A DNA stretch of 55,106 nucleotides from Oxalobacteraceae bacterium (GTDB lineage: Bacteria; Pseudomonadota; Gammaproteobacteria; Burkholderiales; Burkholderiaceae_D): contig OMID01000106.1 of the NCBI GenBank assembly GCA_900299005.1, positions 1 to 55,106 of the forward strand. The letters are read 5' to 3'. Both the position numbers and the translations under genes were made by a program. Numbering within the stretch: position 1 is the stretch's first letter; each line of letters opens with the position of its first letter. This document shows, in pieces, positions 7,056-54,230 of the stretch. The notes below the pieces were generated by a model. That model saw only the letters and a list, made by a program, of their open reading frames with translations, did not search any database and had not been told where the DNA came from.

Positions 7056-7829
7056 TCATGTCTCGCTTGTTTTGGCTGTTTGTGAGATGTCTGTCCTATC
7101 CACCCGCCGGTGATGAATATGCTTTTCGCGGGAGATGGGGTGACGGATCGGCTTGCTGTCTACAAGTCGATCATTGGGGTCGTTAAGCGATTGAGATGAT
7201 TTATCCTCTGTATGGATCTCTGTGATTTCGCTATTAACCGATGCCGAAGGTTGGGCAAGACCCACAGAATCACTTTGCAGAATTCTCCTTTTTCCCTCAG
7301 TGGGCGGCGGAAATGAATTTTTTTTCGGCGCCACATAGTCAGTCTCGATGAGGCTAGCGCTATCGTCCGTCTCGTTGGCAACCCGCATTAACAGCCCGCT
7401 CTCGCTGGCCTTGGAGAAGTTTTTGGCAAGGATGTTATAAGACAACTCTGTCTTGCGATCATAATCGAGCCTTATGTCATCAAAAAAATTCTTTTTCTTC
7501 GCCACTAGTAAACTCGAATCTGCATTTTTAATAGTTCGCATACTGTGTGCGAACTGAGTCGTAGTAAGATCTTTATTTTGTGCCATGCAAAATTTTCTAA
7601 AATCCTCGAGTGTTTGACTTTTGCTTCGCGCAACCCCTTGTCTTTGAAAATTATCGAGACTGTCTTTATGTGCGACAAAAAATACAATCATATTTTTTGT
7701 CGAGCCGTCTTTGCATTTGATTTGCTCTTTTTTGCTGCCAATAATTAGTTCATCCGAGTTGGTTTGTAACTCTGAAAATTGTTTTTGCGGATTTATTTGA
7801 AATGCAAATTTTGCGGAAGAAGTTGTCAC
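7056..7829 (-). CDS. AT-rich orphan protein of unknown function
   Basis: I do not recognise this gene. It starts with GTG at 7829, four bases after a very strong ribosome site TAGGAGG, and encodes 257 residues. There is no signal peptide and no membrane segment. The first 130 residues or so look folded and are rich in Lys, Asp, Phe and Asn; the last 110 or so are polar and probably disordered (Ser, Thr, Pro, Glu, then a basic patch REKHIHHRRVDRT). Base composition is clearly lower than the neighbours: lines around 7.5-7.74 kb are about 35-42% GC by count. This suggests recent acquisition. A secreted effector is possible from the Ser/Thr-rich N-terminus and disordered tail, but no secretion signal or partner gene is seen. 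Confidence 0.7.
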   Translation of the reverse strand: MTTSSAKFAFQINPQKQFSELQTNSDELIIGSKKEQIKCKDGSTKNMIVFFVAHKDSLDNFQRQGVARSKSQTLEDFRKFCMAQNKDLTTTQFAHSMRTIKNADSSLLVAKKKNFFDDIRLDYDRKTELSYNILAKNFSKASESGLLMRVANETDDSASLIETDYVAPKKNSFPPPTEGKRRILQSDSVGLAQPSASVNSEITEIHTEDKSSQSLNDPNDRLVDSKPIRHPISREKHIHHRRVDRTDISQTAKTSET

Positions 7830-8143: not shown

Positions 8144-9283
<1,140 letters not shown>

Positions 9284-9293
9284 TCAGACTAAC

Positions 9294-9400
9294 AGGTGAC
9301 TGTTCACCTCCCGCTTCTCCTCCCTGAGCGGGGCCGTTCTGCCAGAGGGTGGCTCGGCGTTGAACCCTGGAGACCTTCCCCTTTCTCCAGGGGTTTTTTT
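9294..9400 (+). ncRNA. Structured small RNA candidate between hemB and engB
   Basis: The intergenic region contains consecutive inverted repeats ending in a terminator that points along the plus strand, opposite to both flanking genes. In order: AGGTGA (9294-9299)/TCACCT (9304-9309); CCCGCT (9310-9315)/AGCGGG (9327-9332); GCCG (9333-9336)/CGGC (9355-9358) with an inner GCC/GGC; then a 9-base-pair stem CCCTGGAGA/TCTCCAGGG followed by seven T. Read on the minus strand the last hairpin has no T-run. A published 'hemB motif' RNA is known from Burkholderiales next to hemB; I cannot check whether this is it. The 5' end and promoter are not identified. The alternative is a structured hemB leader on the minus strand. 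Confidence 0.6.
9365..9400 (+). terminator. Plus-strand intrinsic terminator beside the engB stop
   Basis: CCCTGGAGA (9365-9373), a 10-base loop, TCTCCAGGG (9384-9392), G, then T7 at 9394-9400. The T-run overlaps the reverse complement of the engB stop codon. No annotated plus-strand gene lies upstream of it. Confidence 0.85.
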
Positions 9401-10124
9401 ATGCGTTTTCCTCTGAGGGTGCGGCATTGGTTGCCGCCGCTTCGCTCAGTCCCAGCAGTGCGCGAACTTTAGCGTCAGCGTCACCGATTCCGATCCGCTT
9501 GGTCGCCGAAAACAACTGCGCGGTAAAAGGAAGCGGCATGCCAGTCTCGTCAACATAACTTGACAGCACCGTGTGTGCAAGTCGCAGTGCATCAGCGGCC
9601 TCGCTTCGGTTCAGCTTATCTGCCTTGCTTAATAGGCAATGAACGGGCTTCCCGGTGCTGGCGAACCACTCGAGCATCTGAATATCTAGCTCCGTGAACG
9701 GCCGGCGTGCGTCCATGATCAGCACCATGCCGACGAGAGGATCACGAACTTGCACATAGCGGCCCAGCAGCTCTTGCCAATGATCTTTGGCCGAGCCGGA
9801 GACCTCTGCATAGCCGTAACCCGGCAGATCGACAAGGAACGCGCGTATTTCCTCGGTGCGCGTCGGGTCCTTGCGATGCTGACCCACCCGCGCGCCACCT
9901 ATGGAGAAAAAATTGATGTGTTGCGTGCGGCCCGGCGTTTTGGACGCGAATGCCAGATGCTTTTGATTGCACAGCAGGTTGATAGCCGTGGATTTACCCG
10001 CGTTTGATCGTCCTGCGAAAGCAATTTCCGGGACTTTATATTTTGGTAAATCTCCGAGCCGGTTAACGGTAGTGAAGAATCGGGCTTGCCAGAGAGCGGA
10101 CATAAATCGTTGCCAGAGCGGCAT
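9399..10124 (-). CDS. engB: Ribosome-biogenesis GTPase EngB (YihA/YsxC)
   Basis: An essential GTPase in most bacteria, needed for late assembly of the 50S subunit. The 241-residue protein has G1 GRSNAGKS at 38-45, the [12 protein letters not shown] switch region, G3 LVDLPGYG, and G4 LSKADKLNR. Two starts are possible: ATG at 10124 (used here) and ATG at 10103 ([10 protein letters not shown]), which matches my memory of relatives better; neither has a clear ribosome site. The C-terminal tail of about 25 residues is Ala-rich. It is divergent from the cytochrome c4 gene and lies upstream of hemB. Confidence 0.94.
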
Positions 10125-50684: not shown

Positions 50685-51488
50685 GTGTCCAATTTCGTCG
50701 ACATTCGAGACCTGCATTTTGCCTACGGCGAGCGCGCCATCCTGAGCGGACTCGACATGCAGTTCCCCAAGGGCAGTGTGGTGGCCGTCATGGGGGGCTC
50801 TGGATCGGGCAAGACGACAGTGCTGCGGCTCATTGGTGGTCAGTTGCGTGCGAATTCCGGCAGTATTACGGTCGACGGACAAGAGGTCGGCCGTCTGGAT
50901 TTGCAAGGGCTGTATGCCCTTCGCCGCCGTATGGGCATGCTGTTCCAGCATGGCGCGTTGTTTACGGATCTGACCGTGTTCGATAACGTTGCGTTCCCCT
51001 TGCGCGAAAACACCCCTTTGCCCGAGCAAATGATCCGTGATCTGGTGCTGATGAAGCTGCACGCGGTGGGTCTGTCAAATGCCGCACACCTGAAACCGGC
51101 CGAAATTTCTGGTGGCATGGCGCGGCGCGTAGCGCTGGCACGCGCAGTCGCTCTCGATCCGCAACTGATCATGTATGACGAGCCGTTCGCCGGTCTTGAT
51201 CCCATTTCAATGGGTGTAACGGCCAACCTGATCCGCAAGCTCAACGATGCATTAGGCTCCACGTCCATTCTGGTCTCGCATGATGTGCATGAGTCCTTCA
51301 GCATTGCCGACCATGTATATTTTCTGTCCCAGGGGCGCATCGTTGCTCACGGCACCCCGCAGCAGATGCAGGAATCCGACGATCCCTACGTGCGGCAGTT
51401 TGTGCATGCCGAGGCCGACGGCCCGGTGCCCTTCCATTACCCTGGGCGCGGCATTGCCGAGCAACTGGGTATGCAGGAAGGCGCATGA
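50685..51488 (+). CDS. mlaF: Phospholipid ABC transporter ATPase MlaF
   Basis: Cytoplasmic ATPase of the Mla system, which keeps the outer membrane asymmetric by moving phospholipids between membranes. The 267-residue protein starts with GTG (MSNFVDIRDLHFAYG). It has Walker A GGSGSGKT (37-44), the family's variant signature ISGGMARRVALARA, and Walker B with MYDEPFAGLDPISMG. The H-loop is VSHDVHE. ATGA joins it to mlaE. Confidence 0.96.
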   Translation: MSNFVDIRDLHFAYGERAILSGLDMQFPKGSVVAVMGGSGSGKTTVLRLIGGQLRANSGSITVDGQEVGRLDLQGLYALRRRMGMLFQHGALFTDLTVFDNVAFPLRENTPLPEQMIRDLVLMKLHAVGLSNAAHLKPAEISGGMARRVALARAVALDPQLIMYDEPFAGLDPISMGVTANLIRKLNDALGSTSILVSHDVHESFSIADHVYFLSQGRIVAHGTPQQMQESDDPYVRQFVHAEADGPVPFHYPGRGIAEQLGMQEGA

Positions 51489-52264
51489 TCATCGATATGC
51501 TCGCCCATCTGGGCGCCAGCGTTCGCAGCGGGCTTGGCGGCCTTGGGGCGGCAGCCCGCACTTTCGCAGACCTCATCATGGCATCCGGCACGGCGCTGCG
51601 CCGTCCGCGGCTAGTGACGGATCAGGTGCATTTCATCGGGAATTATTCGCTGATCATCATTGCCGTATCCGGCCTGTTTGTCGGCTTCGTGCTCGGCCTG
51701 CAGGGCTACTACACCCTCAACAAATACGGTTCCGAGCAGGCGCTGGGATTGCTGGTGGCGCTATCGCTGATACGTGAGTTGGGTCCGGTGGTCACCGCAT
51801 TGCTCTTCGCAGGACGCGCAGGCACATCGCTCACTGCAGAGATTGGGTTGATGAAGGCGGGCGAGCAACTGGCCGCCATGGAGATGATGGCAGTCAACCC
51901 GATGCGACGCGTGCTCGCGCCACGCTTCTGGGCCGGAGTCATTGCGATGCCGGTGCTGGCTGCGATCTTTAGCGCCGTGGGTGTGCTGGGCGGTTATATT
52001 GTCGGTGTGCGACTCATCGGCGTGGACGAAGGTGCCTTCTGGTCGCAGATGCAGGCCGGGGTGGATGTCTGGGCCGATGTGCTTAATGGCGTGATCAAGA
52101 GTTTCGTGTTTGGTGTTGCCGTGACCTTCATTGCGCTTTACGAGGGCTATTGCGCAGCGCCCACACCCGAGGGAGTCGCCCGCGCGACCACGCGCACGGT
52201 CGTGATTGGTTCTCTGATGGTGCTGTGGCTGGATTTCCTGCTCACTGCATTGATGTTTAGCTGA
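51485..52264 (+). CDS. mlaE: Phospholipid ABC transporter permease MlaE
   Basis: Membrane subunit of MlaFEDB. The 259-residue protein has about five to six hydrophobic segments and family signatures FVLGLQGYYTLNKYGSEQ, ELGPVVTALLFAGRAGTSLTAEIGLMKAGEQL and NPMRRVLAPRFWAG. It overlaps mlaF by 4 bases and precedes mlaD by 7 bases. Confidence 0.96.
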   Translation: MIIDMLAHLGASVRSGLGGLGAAARTFADLIMASGTALRRPRLVTDQVHFIGNYSLIIIAVSGLFVGFVLGLQGYYTLNKYGSEQALGLLVALSLIRELGPVVTALLFAGRAGTSLTAEIGLMKAGEQLAAMEMMAVNPMRRVLAPRFWAGVIAMPVLAAIFSAVGVLGGYIVGVRLIGVDEGAFWSQMQAGVDVWADVLNGVIKSFVFGVAVTFIALYEGYCAAPTPEGVARATTRTVVIGSLMVLWLDFLLTALMFS

Positions 52265-52271
52265 GGCGAAG

Positions 52272-52748
52272 ATGCAACGCAAATCTCTGGATGTCTGGGT
52301 AGGGCTGTTCGTGCTGCTGGGTGCGCTAGCGGTCATGTTCCTGGCGCTCAAAGCTGGCAACATGAGCTCGATGAGCTTTGGGCCCAGCTATTCGCTGGTG
52401 GCTCGCTTTGACAATATAGGTGGCCTCAAGCCACGCGCTCCGGTCAAGAGCGCGGGCGTCGTGGTCGGTCGTGTCGAGAGCATAGGCTTCGATGACAAGA
52501 CATTCTTGGCGCAGGTGACACTGCGAATCGAGTCGCGTTATGCCTTTCCTAAGGACAGCTCGGCCAAGATACTAACCTCAGGTCTGCTGGGCGAACAATA
52601 CATCGGCCTTGAGCCTGGTGGAGATACAAAAAATTTTGCCGAGGGTGATCGTATCAAGAGCACTCAGTCAGCGATCGTCCTCGAAAACCTGATCAGCCAA
52701 TTCCTGTACAGTAAAGCTGCCGATGCCAGCGGCGAGGAGAAAAAATGA
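52272..52748 (+). CDS. mlaD: Phospholipid transport MCE-domain protein MlaD
   Basis: Anchored periplasmic protein whose hexamer receives lipids from MlaC and funnels them to MlaE. The 158-residue protein has one N-terminal membrane anchor (about 9-28) and one MCE domain (YSLVARFDNIGGLKPRAPVKSAGVVVGRVESI, then GLLGEQYIGLEPGG). The stop overlaps the mlaA start (ATGA). Confidence 0.95.
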   Translation: MQRKSLDVWVGLFVLLGALAVMFLALKAGNMSSMSFGPSYSLVARFDNIGGLKPRAPVKSAGVVVGRVESIGFDDKTFLAQVTLRIESRYAFPKDSSAKILTSGLLGEQYIGLEPGGDTKNFAEGDRIKSTQSAIVLENLISQFLYSKAADASGEEKK

Positions 52749-53458
52749 CCATCCACACACGCTTGCTCCGCTGGGGTGCTATCGCATTCATCAGTTGGGT
52801 GCTGACAGCCTGTGCCAGCACCAACGTGGCCGGTGCTGGCAGCGATCCACGCGATCCTTATGAGAACTACAACCGCGCCATGTTCGAATTCAACCGTAAA
52901 GTAGACGATAATCTTTTGAAACCGGTCGCCACCGGTTATGCTGCCGTTCTGCCCTCCTTTGTACGCACTGCGGTAGGCAATTTCTTCGCCAACATCGGTG
53001 ATGTCTGGACCTCGGTGAACAATTATTTGCAGGGCAAGCCAAAAGATGGCACCACGGACGCTGTACGTGTCGTCTTCAATTCAACGATAGGTGTTGCGGG
53101 CCTGATTGACGTGGCAACGCCGATGGGGCTGCCCAAACACGAGGAAGATTTCGGGCAAACTCTGGGTGTCTGGGGCGCCAAATCCGGGCCGTATGTCGTG
53201 CTGCCTTTCTTTGGTTCCAGCACCGTGCGCGATACGTTCGCAAAACCCCTCGATTTGTATGCCGATCCGCTCACTGCCTCCAGCAATGTGCCAGTGCGGG
53301 CTAAAAACAGCGGCCGAGCGCTGCGAATTGTTGATGATCGCGCAGCCCTGCTGGATACCGGCACCCTCATGGAGGGCGCGGCGCTGGATCCTTACCAGTT
53401 CTTCCGTGATGCGTACTTGCAGCGCAGGGAAAGTCGCATTCGTGACGGCAACGAATAA
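52745..53458 (+). CDS. mlaA: Outer-membrane lipoprotein MlaA (VacJ)
   Basis: Removes mislocalised phospholipid from the outer leaflet and passes it to MlaC. The 237-residue protein has a lipobox LTAC (Cys near 23) and VacJ motifs DPYENYNRAMFEFNRKVDD, VFNSTIGVAGLIDVATPMGLPKHEEDFGQTLGVWG and GPYVVLPFFGSSTVRD. In E. coli mlaA lies elsewhere; here it is inside the operon, as in other betaproteobacteria. A short palindrome and a 130-base gap follow. Confidence 0.95.
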   Translation: MTIHTRLLRWGAIAFISWVLTACASTNVAGAGSDPRDPYENYNRAMFEFNRKVDDNLLKPVATGYAAVLPSFVRTAVGNFFANIGDVWTSVNNYLQGKPKDGTTDAVRVVFNSTIGVAGLIDVATPMGLPKHEEDFGQTLGVWGAKSGPYVVLPFFGSSTVRDTFAKPLDLYADPLTASSNVPVRAKNSGRALRIVDDRAALLDTGTLMEGAALDPYQFFRDAYLQRRESRIRDGNE

Positions 53459-53460
53459 CT

Positions 53461-53478
53461 CGCGCGCTGCAGCGCGCG
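53461..53478. other. 18-base perfect palindrome after mlaA
   Basis: CGCGCGCTGCAGCGCGCG starts 3 bases after the mlaA stop. There is no T-run; it may be an mRNA 3'-end structure or a chance product of GC-rich sequence. Confidence 0.4.
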
Positions 53479-53588
53479 TTGCCCGCGGTCGGCCTGCCCG
53501 TATTTGGCCCTCAGCGATCTGTTTCGGTATGATTCGGCTTTCCGGGTGCTCCACAGACCGGCACGCCCCTTGATCGCACGGAATCGCT

Positions 53589-54230
53589 ATGTCCCTCCTC
53601 AGGAAGTTATCCTCTTTTTTTGTCACTGCGATTTTTCTCCACGCAGGTAGCGCCAGTGCTCAGCAGGAGGCGCCTGATGCGCTGATCAAGCGCGTCAGCA
53701 CCGAAATACTCGAGCTGGCCAAGACCGACAAGCAGATTCAGGCGGGCAATCAGCAGCGGATCATGGAGGTCGTCCAGGCCAAGGTCATCCCGCACGTGAA
53801 TTTTCAGCGGATGACTGCCATGGCAGCTGGACGTTTCTGGCGCGAGGCCACGCCGGAGCAACAGGCTGCGCTGACCACGGAATTCCGTGCCCTGCTGATC
53901 TACACCTACTCAGGCGCGATTTCGCAAGTACGTAACCAGGTGCTGGAATTCAAGCCCTTGCGCGCTGATGCCGGCGATGATGAAGTCGAAGTTCGCTCGG
54001 TTGTGATCCAGCCCCGTGGTGAGCCGATACAGTTGAACTACCGCCTTGAAAAAACGCCGGCTGGCTGGAAAATCTATGACGTCAACATTCTGGGCGTCTG
54101 GCTGGTAGAGACGTACAAGGGAACCTTCGCCGCCGAGATCAACAAGGGCGGCATCGACGGGCTGATCCGCGCGCTGGCCGAGCGCAACAAGCGACTGGCT
54201 GTGGCGCCCCCCAAGCCTGCAAAAACCTGA
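53589..54230 (+). CDS. mlaC: Phospholipid-binding periplasmic protein MlaC
   Basis: Soluble carrier that ferries phospholipid between MlaA and MlaD. The 213-residue protein has a signal peptide (1-24, ending SASAQQ) and MlaC motifs VIPHVNFQRMTAMAAGRFWREATPEQQAALTTEFRALLIYTYSGA and YDVNILGVWLVETY. It lies 130 bases after mlaA and overlaps the mlaB start (TGATG). Confidence 0.95.
   Translation: MSLLRKLSSFFVTAIFLHAGSASAQQEAPDALIKRVSTEILELAKTDKQIQAGNQQRIMEVVQAKVIPHVNFQRMTAMAAGRFWREATPEQQAALTTEFRALLIYTYSGAISQVRNQVLEFKPLRADAGDDEVEVRSVVIQPRGEPIQLNYRLEKTPAGWKIYDVNILGVWLVETYKGTFAAEINKGGIDGLIRALAERNKRLAVAPPKPAKT

Follow-up and report, generated by a model that had tools for sequence, protein, structure and literature searches.

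The region at 9294–9400 of the window (the whole stretch of DNA analysed, 55,106 nucleotides) carries a member of the Rfam family RF02837, anti-hemB. It probably encodes a plus-strand small RNA (sRNA) of about 105 nt, which would start at a promoter of the sigma-E (RpoE/AlgU, ECF02) type, end at its own terminator and act, aided by Hfq, through masking of ribosome-binding sites. Comparison with relatives established, at the level of sequence, the family membership, the hairpins, the terminator, the loop and, outside the Burkholderia-like family, conserved promoter boxes at a fixed spacing. Family membership and direction are already known. The conserved sigma-E-type promoter is an addition that was absent from the preliminary description of this DNA, and for anti-hemB it is new in that it was not found in print; in the open-licence PMC literature we found no paper linking anti-hemB to sigma-E, which is weak evidence of absence.

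The locus and its flanking genes

Open reading frames and start codons place both neighbours of the RNA on the minus strand. We take the gene at 8144–9157 to be hemB, based on the preliminary description and recognition of the protein rather than on a family scan, and the gene at 9399–10124 is presumably engB, a name taken from the same description and likewise not from a family scan. The features of the locus are:

8144–9157, minus strand: hemB (5-aminolevulinate dehydratase), open reading frame with start codon at 9157, divergent from the sRNA
9262–9269, plus strand: -35 box GAACTT(TT), sigma-E/AlgU-type, from a pattern match at 9262–9288; full box GAACTTTT
9284–9288, plus strand: -10 box TCAGA, 16 nt after GAACTT, from the pattern match
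9294–9296, plus strand: predicted sRNA transcription start (± 2 nt), 6–8 nt after the -10 box
9294–9309, plus strand: 5' hairpin AGGTGA/TCACCT, from the fold, lying for the most part before the Rfam match, which begins at 9307
9307–9400, plus strand: Rfam RF02837 anti-hemB match, full model 1–81, 53.5 bits, gathering threshold 49.5, E 9.9e-10
9310–9332, plus strand: hairpin 1, CCCGCT/AGCGGG, which presents the C/U-rich loop, from the fold
9316–9326, plus strand: loop TCTCCTCCCTG, which is the likely seed and reads as the reverse complement of a Shine-Dalgarno-like sequence
9333–9358, plus strand: hairpin 2, GCCG/CGGC, differing between copies in sequence and length, from the fold
9365–9400, plus strand: intrinsic terminator with a 9-bp stem, C-rich loop CCTTCCCCTT (9374–9383) and T7 (9394–9400), from the fold and a terminator search
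9399–10124, minus strand: engB (GTP-binding protein), open reading frame, relatives found by tblastn; its stop codon overlaps the last T bases of the sRNA

The earlier reading of a structured plus-strand RNA in the gap between two minus-strand genes was confirmed by the open reading frames, the fold and the Rfam match. Because all plus-strand open reading frames of at least 80 amino acids between 8144 and 9399 fall inside hemB, on the opposite strand, no plus-strand gene was seen for the terminator to serve, as had been described. It had also been claimed that a small RNA is transcribed against hemB and engB. The small RNA stands, but "against" does not: hemB, whose start codon (9157) lies about 138 nt from the predicted sRNA start, diverges from the RNA and shows no overlap with it within its coding region, and the overlap with engB is confined to the stop codon. 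Beyond hemB, a 257-aa open frame on the minus strand (7056–7829) lies between a peroxiredoxin-like gene and hemB.

Family membership and published homologue

In the Rfam scan of the whole window, RF02837 was the sole match over threshold, so that the suspected membership in a hemB-associated RNA family was upheld by the covariance model (53.5 bits against a gathering threshold of 49.5). The direction, previously called unsettled, is no longer so, since Rfam models the strand corresponding to the plus strand here and both the start and the 3' end of the homologue ncS04 have been mapped in Burkholderia cenocepacia. Sass et al. report ncS04 of strain J2315 as anti-hemB, on the plus strand and 105 nt long, with its start from dRNA-seq and its 3' end from RACE and dRNA-seq (PMC5688073). 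The gene order '<- -> <-' and co-purification with Hfq are given for ncS04 in an earlier paper of the same authors (PMC4603805), and Khoo et al. name Anti-hemB among the trans-acting RNAs of B. pseudomallei (PMC3521395); the 'anti-HemB' of PMC6515984 is an antibody. The start predicted in the window gives an RNA of about 105 nt, equal to the length of ncS04 in Table 1 of PMC5688073, and the two are further alike in RF02837 membership and gene order, the length being predicted in the window and mapped in ncS04. Hfq binding is reported for the homologue. The window RNA differs from the Burkholderia-like copies in its sigma-E-type promoter, as against a mostly TATGAT-type promoter there, and in a long C-rich terminator loop, which is short in the three aligned Burkholderia-like copies; its paired 5' hairpin lies mostly outside the 81-position RF02837 model.

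Other families were considered. The betaproteobacterial toxic small RNAs of RF02278 (ncS27, bdhR1, S17) have, as here, a C/U-rich loop complementary to ribosome-binding sites together with a terminator, but they have a 64-position model and another locus, and membership was rejected as no RF02278 match was obtained in 8900–9800 with E up to 10. The window's genome has an RF02278 toxic small RNA of its own at L002:1497–1558 (G000:C38:3724–3785), with 73.8 bits, a C/U-rich loop and a terminator. The alphaproteobacterial ar14 (RF02344) is alike in layout with C-rich loops, and was rejected with a full-length score of 22.2 bits, far under the gathering threshold of 58.8. A PLSDB search gave no match.

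Hairpins, loop and terminator

The plus strand at 9280–9410 folds into four hairpins (9294–9309, 9310–9332, 9333–9358 and the terminator). The preliminary description had counted three hairpins ending in a terminator, of which the terminator was retained and the count was not. The terminator stem pairs 9365–9373 with 9384–9392, and the minus strand has a hairpin followed by TTCAACG and no T-run, which bears out that the 9-bp stem and T7 act as a terminator on the plus strand only. One terminator-like site was found in 8900–9900, on the plus strand, and this count alone proves nothing because on average 0.7 such sites turn up when the region is shuffled. The plus-strand folding energy (z -1.93; 8/200 shuffles as good) is similarly weak on its own. 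Chance is nevertheless unlikely because of the Rfam match (53.5 bits, E 9.9e-10) together with covariation across relatives.

The structure alignment contained 71 sequences, hand-picked from 119 representatives of 200 copies with 48 left out, and since they were picked for ease of alignment the pairing percentages lean high. RNAalifold predicted 22 pairs on these sequences, with changes on both sides in 15. In the 19 pairs that were counted, 97.6% of cells were paired and 13 pairs had both-side changes, with the reservation that these pairs derive from the prediction on the same alignment, which favours structure. On none of five measures did any of 500 shuffles reach these values, and sliding the structure gave 34–54%. 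The 5' hairpin has both-side changes in 6/6 pairs with 96.5% of cells paired, hairpin 1 has 5/6 pairs invariant with 100% of cells paired, and the terminator has both-side changes in 6/7 counted pairs. A stem of at least 4 pairs in hairpin 2 was present in 114/119 representatives, but the shuffled control reached 77%, so this count is uninformative. The T-run, the conservation of which had been proposed as a check, is at least five long in 118/119 representatives, all of which had been selected for a run of four T or more.

The C/U-rich loop, CUCCUCCCU, is almost invariant across the copies. The loop TCTCCTCCCTG was exact in 147/200 distinct copies and CTCCCT was present in 199/200, counts which lean high as the collecting pattern itself demanded CTCC and two pyrimidines. 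Outside the Burkholderia-like family, the majority of aligned copies have a C-rich terminator loop (TCCCCTT-like); a crude word count gave 52/59 for the window's family, 43/52 for other families and 2/8 for the Burkholderia-like family. This second C-rich loop (TCCCCTT), at 9374–9383 and equivalent positions, could, from its sequence, serve as a second pairing site.

A minus-strand feature, either a terminator or a leader element for engB-hemB, is very improbable. The reverse strand folds as well (-46 kcal/mol, z -1.05), but it lacks a T-run where the plus-strand T-run is conserved (in copies collected with at least four T), and transcripts from the plus strand have been mapped in B. cenocepacia (PMC5688073). 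The minus-strand leader or terminator was rejected as a candidate on the missing T-run and on a ylbH match of 18.4 bits against a cut-off of 50.

Sigma-E-type promoter boxes

Upstream of the RNA the window reads GAACTTTT-N16-TCAGA (9262–9288). The boxes resemble in sequence those of the sigma-E-dependent MicA and RybB; according to Papenfort et al., micA and rybB conform to the sigma-E boxes GGAACTTTT and GTCAAA (PMC1804206). As expected of an sRNA of the MicA/RybB type, a -35 and a -10 box of sigma-E character, 16–17 nt apart, were found conserved upstream. The likeness to these enterobacterial RNAs consists of GGAACTTTT/GTCAAA-type boxes and of being a short intergenic sRNA (PMC1804206); the window RNA differs in that its likely pairing region is a C/U-rich hairpin loop.

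Conservation was determined in 200 distinct copies with 80 nt upstream, taken from 230 loci showing the loop pattern. This sample omits copies near contig ends or rich in N, and only identical duplicates were removed, with near relatives counted repeatedly. Sixteen loci fetched with RF02837 had no loop pattern and were dropped, some of them over the Rfam cut-off (L002, L140, L152, L166, L174, L176, L179, L180, L182, L184, L185, L186, L188, L189, L241 and L391). In the window's family (f1, which we infer to be Oxalobacteraceae, the Burkholderia-like family f31 being Burkholderiaceae in the narrow sense), 96 of the 105 distinct copies carried AAC[CT]T-N15..17-TC upstream (shuffle mean 3.8; reverse complement 0), and 91/105 carried GAACTT or GAAACTT at the same spacing (shuffle 0.3). 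The strict pattern was found in 36/64 copies from other families of the order (shuffle 1.9) and the looser AAC[CT][TAC]-N15..17-TC in 55/64 (shuffle 5.1; reverse complement 2); these copies often read GGAACTT or GGAACTA-N16/17-TCnnA. The box test thus failed in 9/105 copies of the window's family and, with the looser pattern, in 9/64 of the other families, L237 failing solely from an undetermined base. The -35 columns of the 96 matching copies were A100 A100 C100 T96 T100 T95 T86, the first five being constrained by the search and the last two (T95, T86) free. The spacer was 16 in 87 and 17 in 9 copies, with 16 tested first, and in 94% an A, which the search did not demand, stood at position five of the -10 box.

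An expanded loop, TCCCCTTCCCTCCCTG, was observed in 11 copies of the window's family, 8 of which fail the box test (L154, L167, L173, L177, L178, L181, L190 and L192). L154 and L167, with AACTT-N17-CC, and L192, with a spacer of 18, are near misses and the others have no AACTT; judging from their sequences, the promoter of those without AACTT may have changed independently.

The loose box pattern was not enriched across the window's genome, with 20 matches versus 70 in the reversed control, and a further genome-wide box search gave 4 matches versus 11 in the control; one GAAACTT match lies inside the rpoE coding match. Because the pattern is not enriched genome-wide, the case for the promoter rests on its conservation.

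The Burkholderia-like copies

In the Burkholderia-like family, AAC[CT]T-N15..17-TC was found in 11/31 copies and the looser pattern in 15/31. The word TAT[AGC]AT was present in 30/31 (shuffle 1.5), with 31/31 on the reverse complement because it reads alike on both strands. In copies of the L223 type, a start 105 nt before the end of the T-run falls 7 nt below TATGAT. Five copies (L224, L387, L390, L392 and L394) have GAAACTT-N17-TCATAC with an overlapping TATCAT. From these sequences, the Burkholderia-like promoter seems to have been remodelled for use by the housekeeping sigma factor.

The same two observations, the TAT[AGC]AT count and the L223-type start, speak for an ordinary housekeeping promoter, in which case the RNA would be a trans-acting anti-Shine-Dalgarno sRNA and the GAACTT boxes an activator site or the site of another ECF sigma factor; ECF groups other than RpoE also have AAC in the -35 box. 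We regard this as rather unlikely, as TAT[AGC]AT is about at chance outside the Burkholderia-like family (2/105 in the window's family, shuffles 4.8; 5/64 in the others, shuffles 2.3), and the boxes and their spacing match sigma-E and the rpoE boxes of the genus.

In B. cenocepacia, none of the seven conditions tabulated in PMC5688073 changed ncS04 significantly, and short stresses, SDS among them, had largely no significant effect as reported there. As the Burkholderia-like clade is mostly without boxes, these data neither support nor refute a role of sigma-E; the non-response is predicted by a promoter switch and equally by sigma-E never having controlled the RNA.

Possible connection with RpoE

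An RpoE scoring above its family cut-off is encoded in the window's genome. GAACTT-N16-TC together with AAC, AGC or TAAC was found within 350 nt upstream in 9/12 rpoE loci of the same genus, including the window's own genome, where the boxes are TGAACTTTTTGAATGTCATCAAGTCAACG at -228; the L199 rpoE locus has a weaker form of the search pattern and is outside the 9/12. Outside the genus, similar boxes within 350 nt were found in 0/6 rpoE loci scanned, and 3 more were unreadable. Both in vitro and in E. coli, the SigE of Bordetella bronchiseptica directs transcription at rpoHP3, a sigma-E promoter of E. coli (PMC3490749); this promoter type is therefore used by at least one RpoE of the beta-proteobacteria. 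FoxI and FoxJ of Fusobacterium nucleatum are described as sigma-E sRNAs with a conserved cytosine-rich seed and promoters shared with rpoE, which repress envelope proteins (PMC11005410); they belong to another phylum.

Distribution and genomic context

RF02837 was found over the cut-off in 129/294 genomes of the window's family, 245/399 genomes sampled across the order and 91/120 genomes of the Burkholderia-like family. At E 0.001 these counts were 228/294, 299/399 and 105/120, and matches at this level need care as they also occurred in 3/14 control genomes including E. coli, none of them over the cut-off. The weaker second RF02837 match in the window's genome is the RF02278 RNA at L002 (29 bits with RF02837, 73.8 with RF02278).

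The window's arrangement of hemB and engB recurs in 101 of the 105 distinct copies that lie in loci longer than 1.5 kb. Of the remainder, 3 have no engB match and one (L247) is relocated. The L247 copy (76.5 bits) follows engB in the same orientation, with no hemB match in the 3-kb locus (flanks of about 1.5 kb), and it keeps GGAACTC-N16-TCTTAC boxes, the loop and the terminator. The engB-hemB gap, as estimated, was at most 33 bp in 20/80 named engB loci (L056, L073, L076–L078, L080, L081, L083, L085, L087, L089, L091–L094, L101, L105, L106, L111 and L112), and 18 of these 20 carry the label Massilia, Duganella or Rugamonas. Such a gap leaves no room for the sRNA, and the two genes do without the RNA there. 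In the fetched flank of 17 Janthinobacterium-labelled engB loci no hemB was found.

The opposite orientation between hemB and engB that is kept in the 101/105 copies with enough flank would be expected of a cis-antisense regulator of hemB and/or engB, with the RNA or its transcription interfering. However, we consider this improbable, as the RNA overlaps nothing of engB beyond the stop codon and diverges from hemB, the most conserved part of the RNA is a loop resembling the complement of a ribosome-binding site, L247 retains RNA and boxes on the engB strand without a hemB match in its flanks, a quarter of the named engB loci have no room for the RNA, and the homologue ncS04 binds Hfq (PMC4603805). 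A trans-acting RNA fits better than regulation of hemB or engB by overlap, and hemB is probably not regulated in that way.

Candidate targets

Because the loop complements the ribosome-binding site and the homologue binds Hfq, masking of start sites in trans is the most likely mode of action. Masking of the ribosome-binding site has been suggested for B. cenocepacia sRNAs (PMC5688073), and S17 of B. pertussis, a different sRNA, represses its target by pairing through a C/U-rich region (PMC11722255). For the window RNA, the dependence on sigma-E and the targets are both inferred from sequence.

AGGGAGG-N3..9-ATG gave 22 matches in the window's genome versus 6 in the reversed control. The longer open frames following AGGGAGG sites were read by eye as a phosphate ABC ATPase, ribosomal protein L6, a periplasmic binding protein and a PPK2-like protein, and start sites of this type showed no envelope theme in the window's genome. 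A comparison of the 3 porins that satisfied a start-site rule with 86 other genes (p 0.04) was underpowered and was not trusted, being confounded by ribosome-binding-site strength. A Porin_4 match in the window's genome, at G000:C13:1036–1956 (L360), contains one in-frame TAG stop. Of 42 window genes, mlaA has the start site, AGGAGAAAAAATG, that pairs best with the sRNA loop, but it was rejected as a conserved target with -7.0 to -17.5 kcal/mol in relatives (13/30 loci readable). The window has an mla-type operon at 50685–54230, in which MlaA was confirmed by PF04333 and the rest was read by eye. In these small tests (AGGGAGG sites, porins and mlaA) no conserved target was found.

Biological meaning

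We propose that upon envelope stress sigma-E would make the anti-hemB RNA, that Hfq and the C/U-rich loop of the RNA would pair it with purine-rich ribosome-binding sites of some mRNAs, and that this pairing would lower their translation, as sigma-E sRNAs do elsewhere. Burkholderia-like genomes would have remodelled the promoter to suit the housekeeping sigma factor. On a wider scale we lean slightly towards anti-hemB being the non-coding branch of the response that sigma-E mounts to envelope stress in this order (Burkholderiales, GTDB), analogous to the gamma-proteobacterial MicA and RybB, with one or two C/U-rich loops masking ribosome-binding sites and with the Burkholderia-like promoter swapped to a housekeeping one.

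In the literature found, no regulator or function of anti-hemB is stated. If the proposal is true, the promoter swap would explain why the family looks constitutive and functionless in the strain studied. The species studied so far may then mislead, since the Burkholderia-like copies seem to have a changed promoter, and the conserved sigma-E promoter would place anti-hemB in a defined stress response, in which its role becomes testable.
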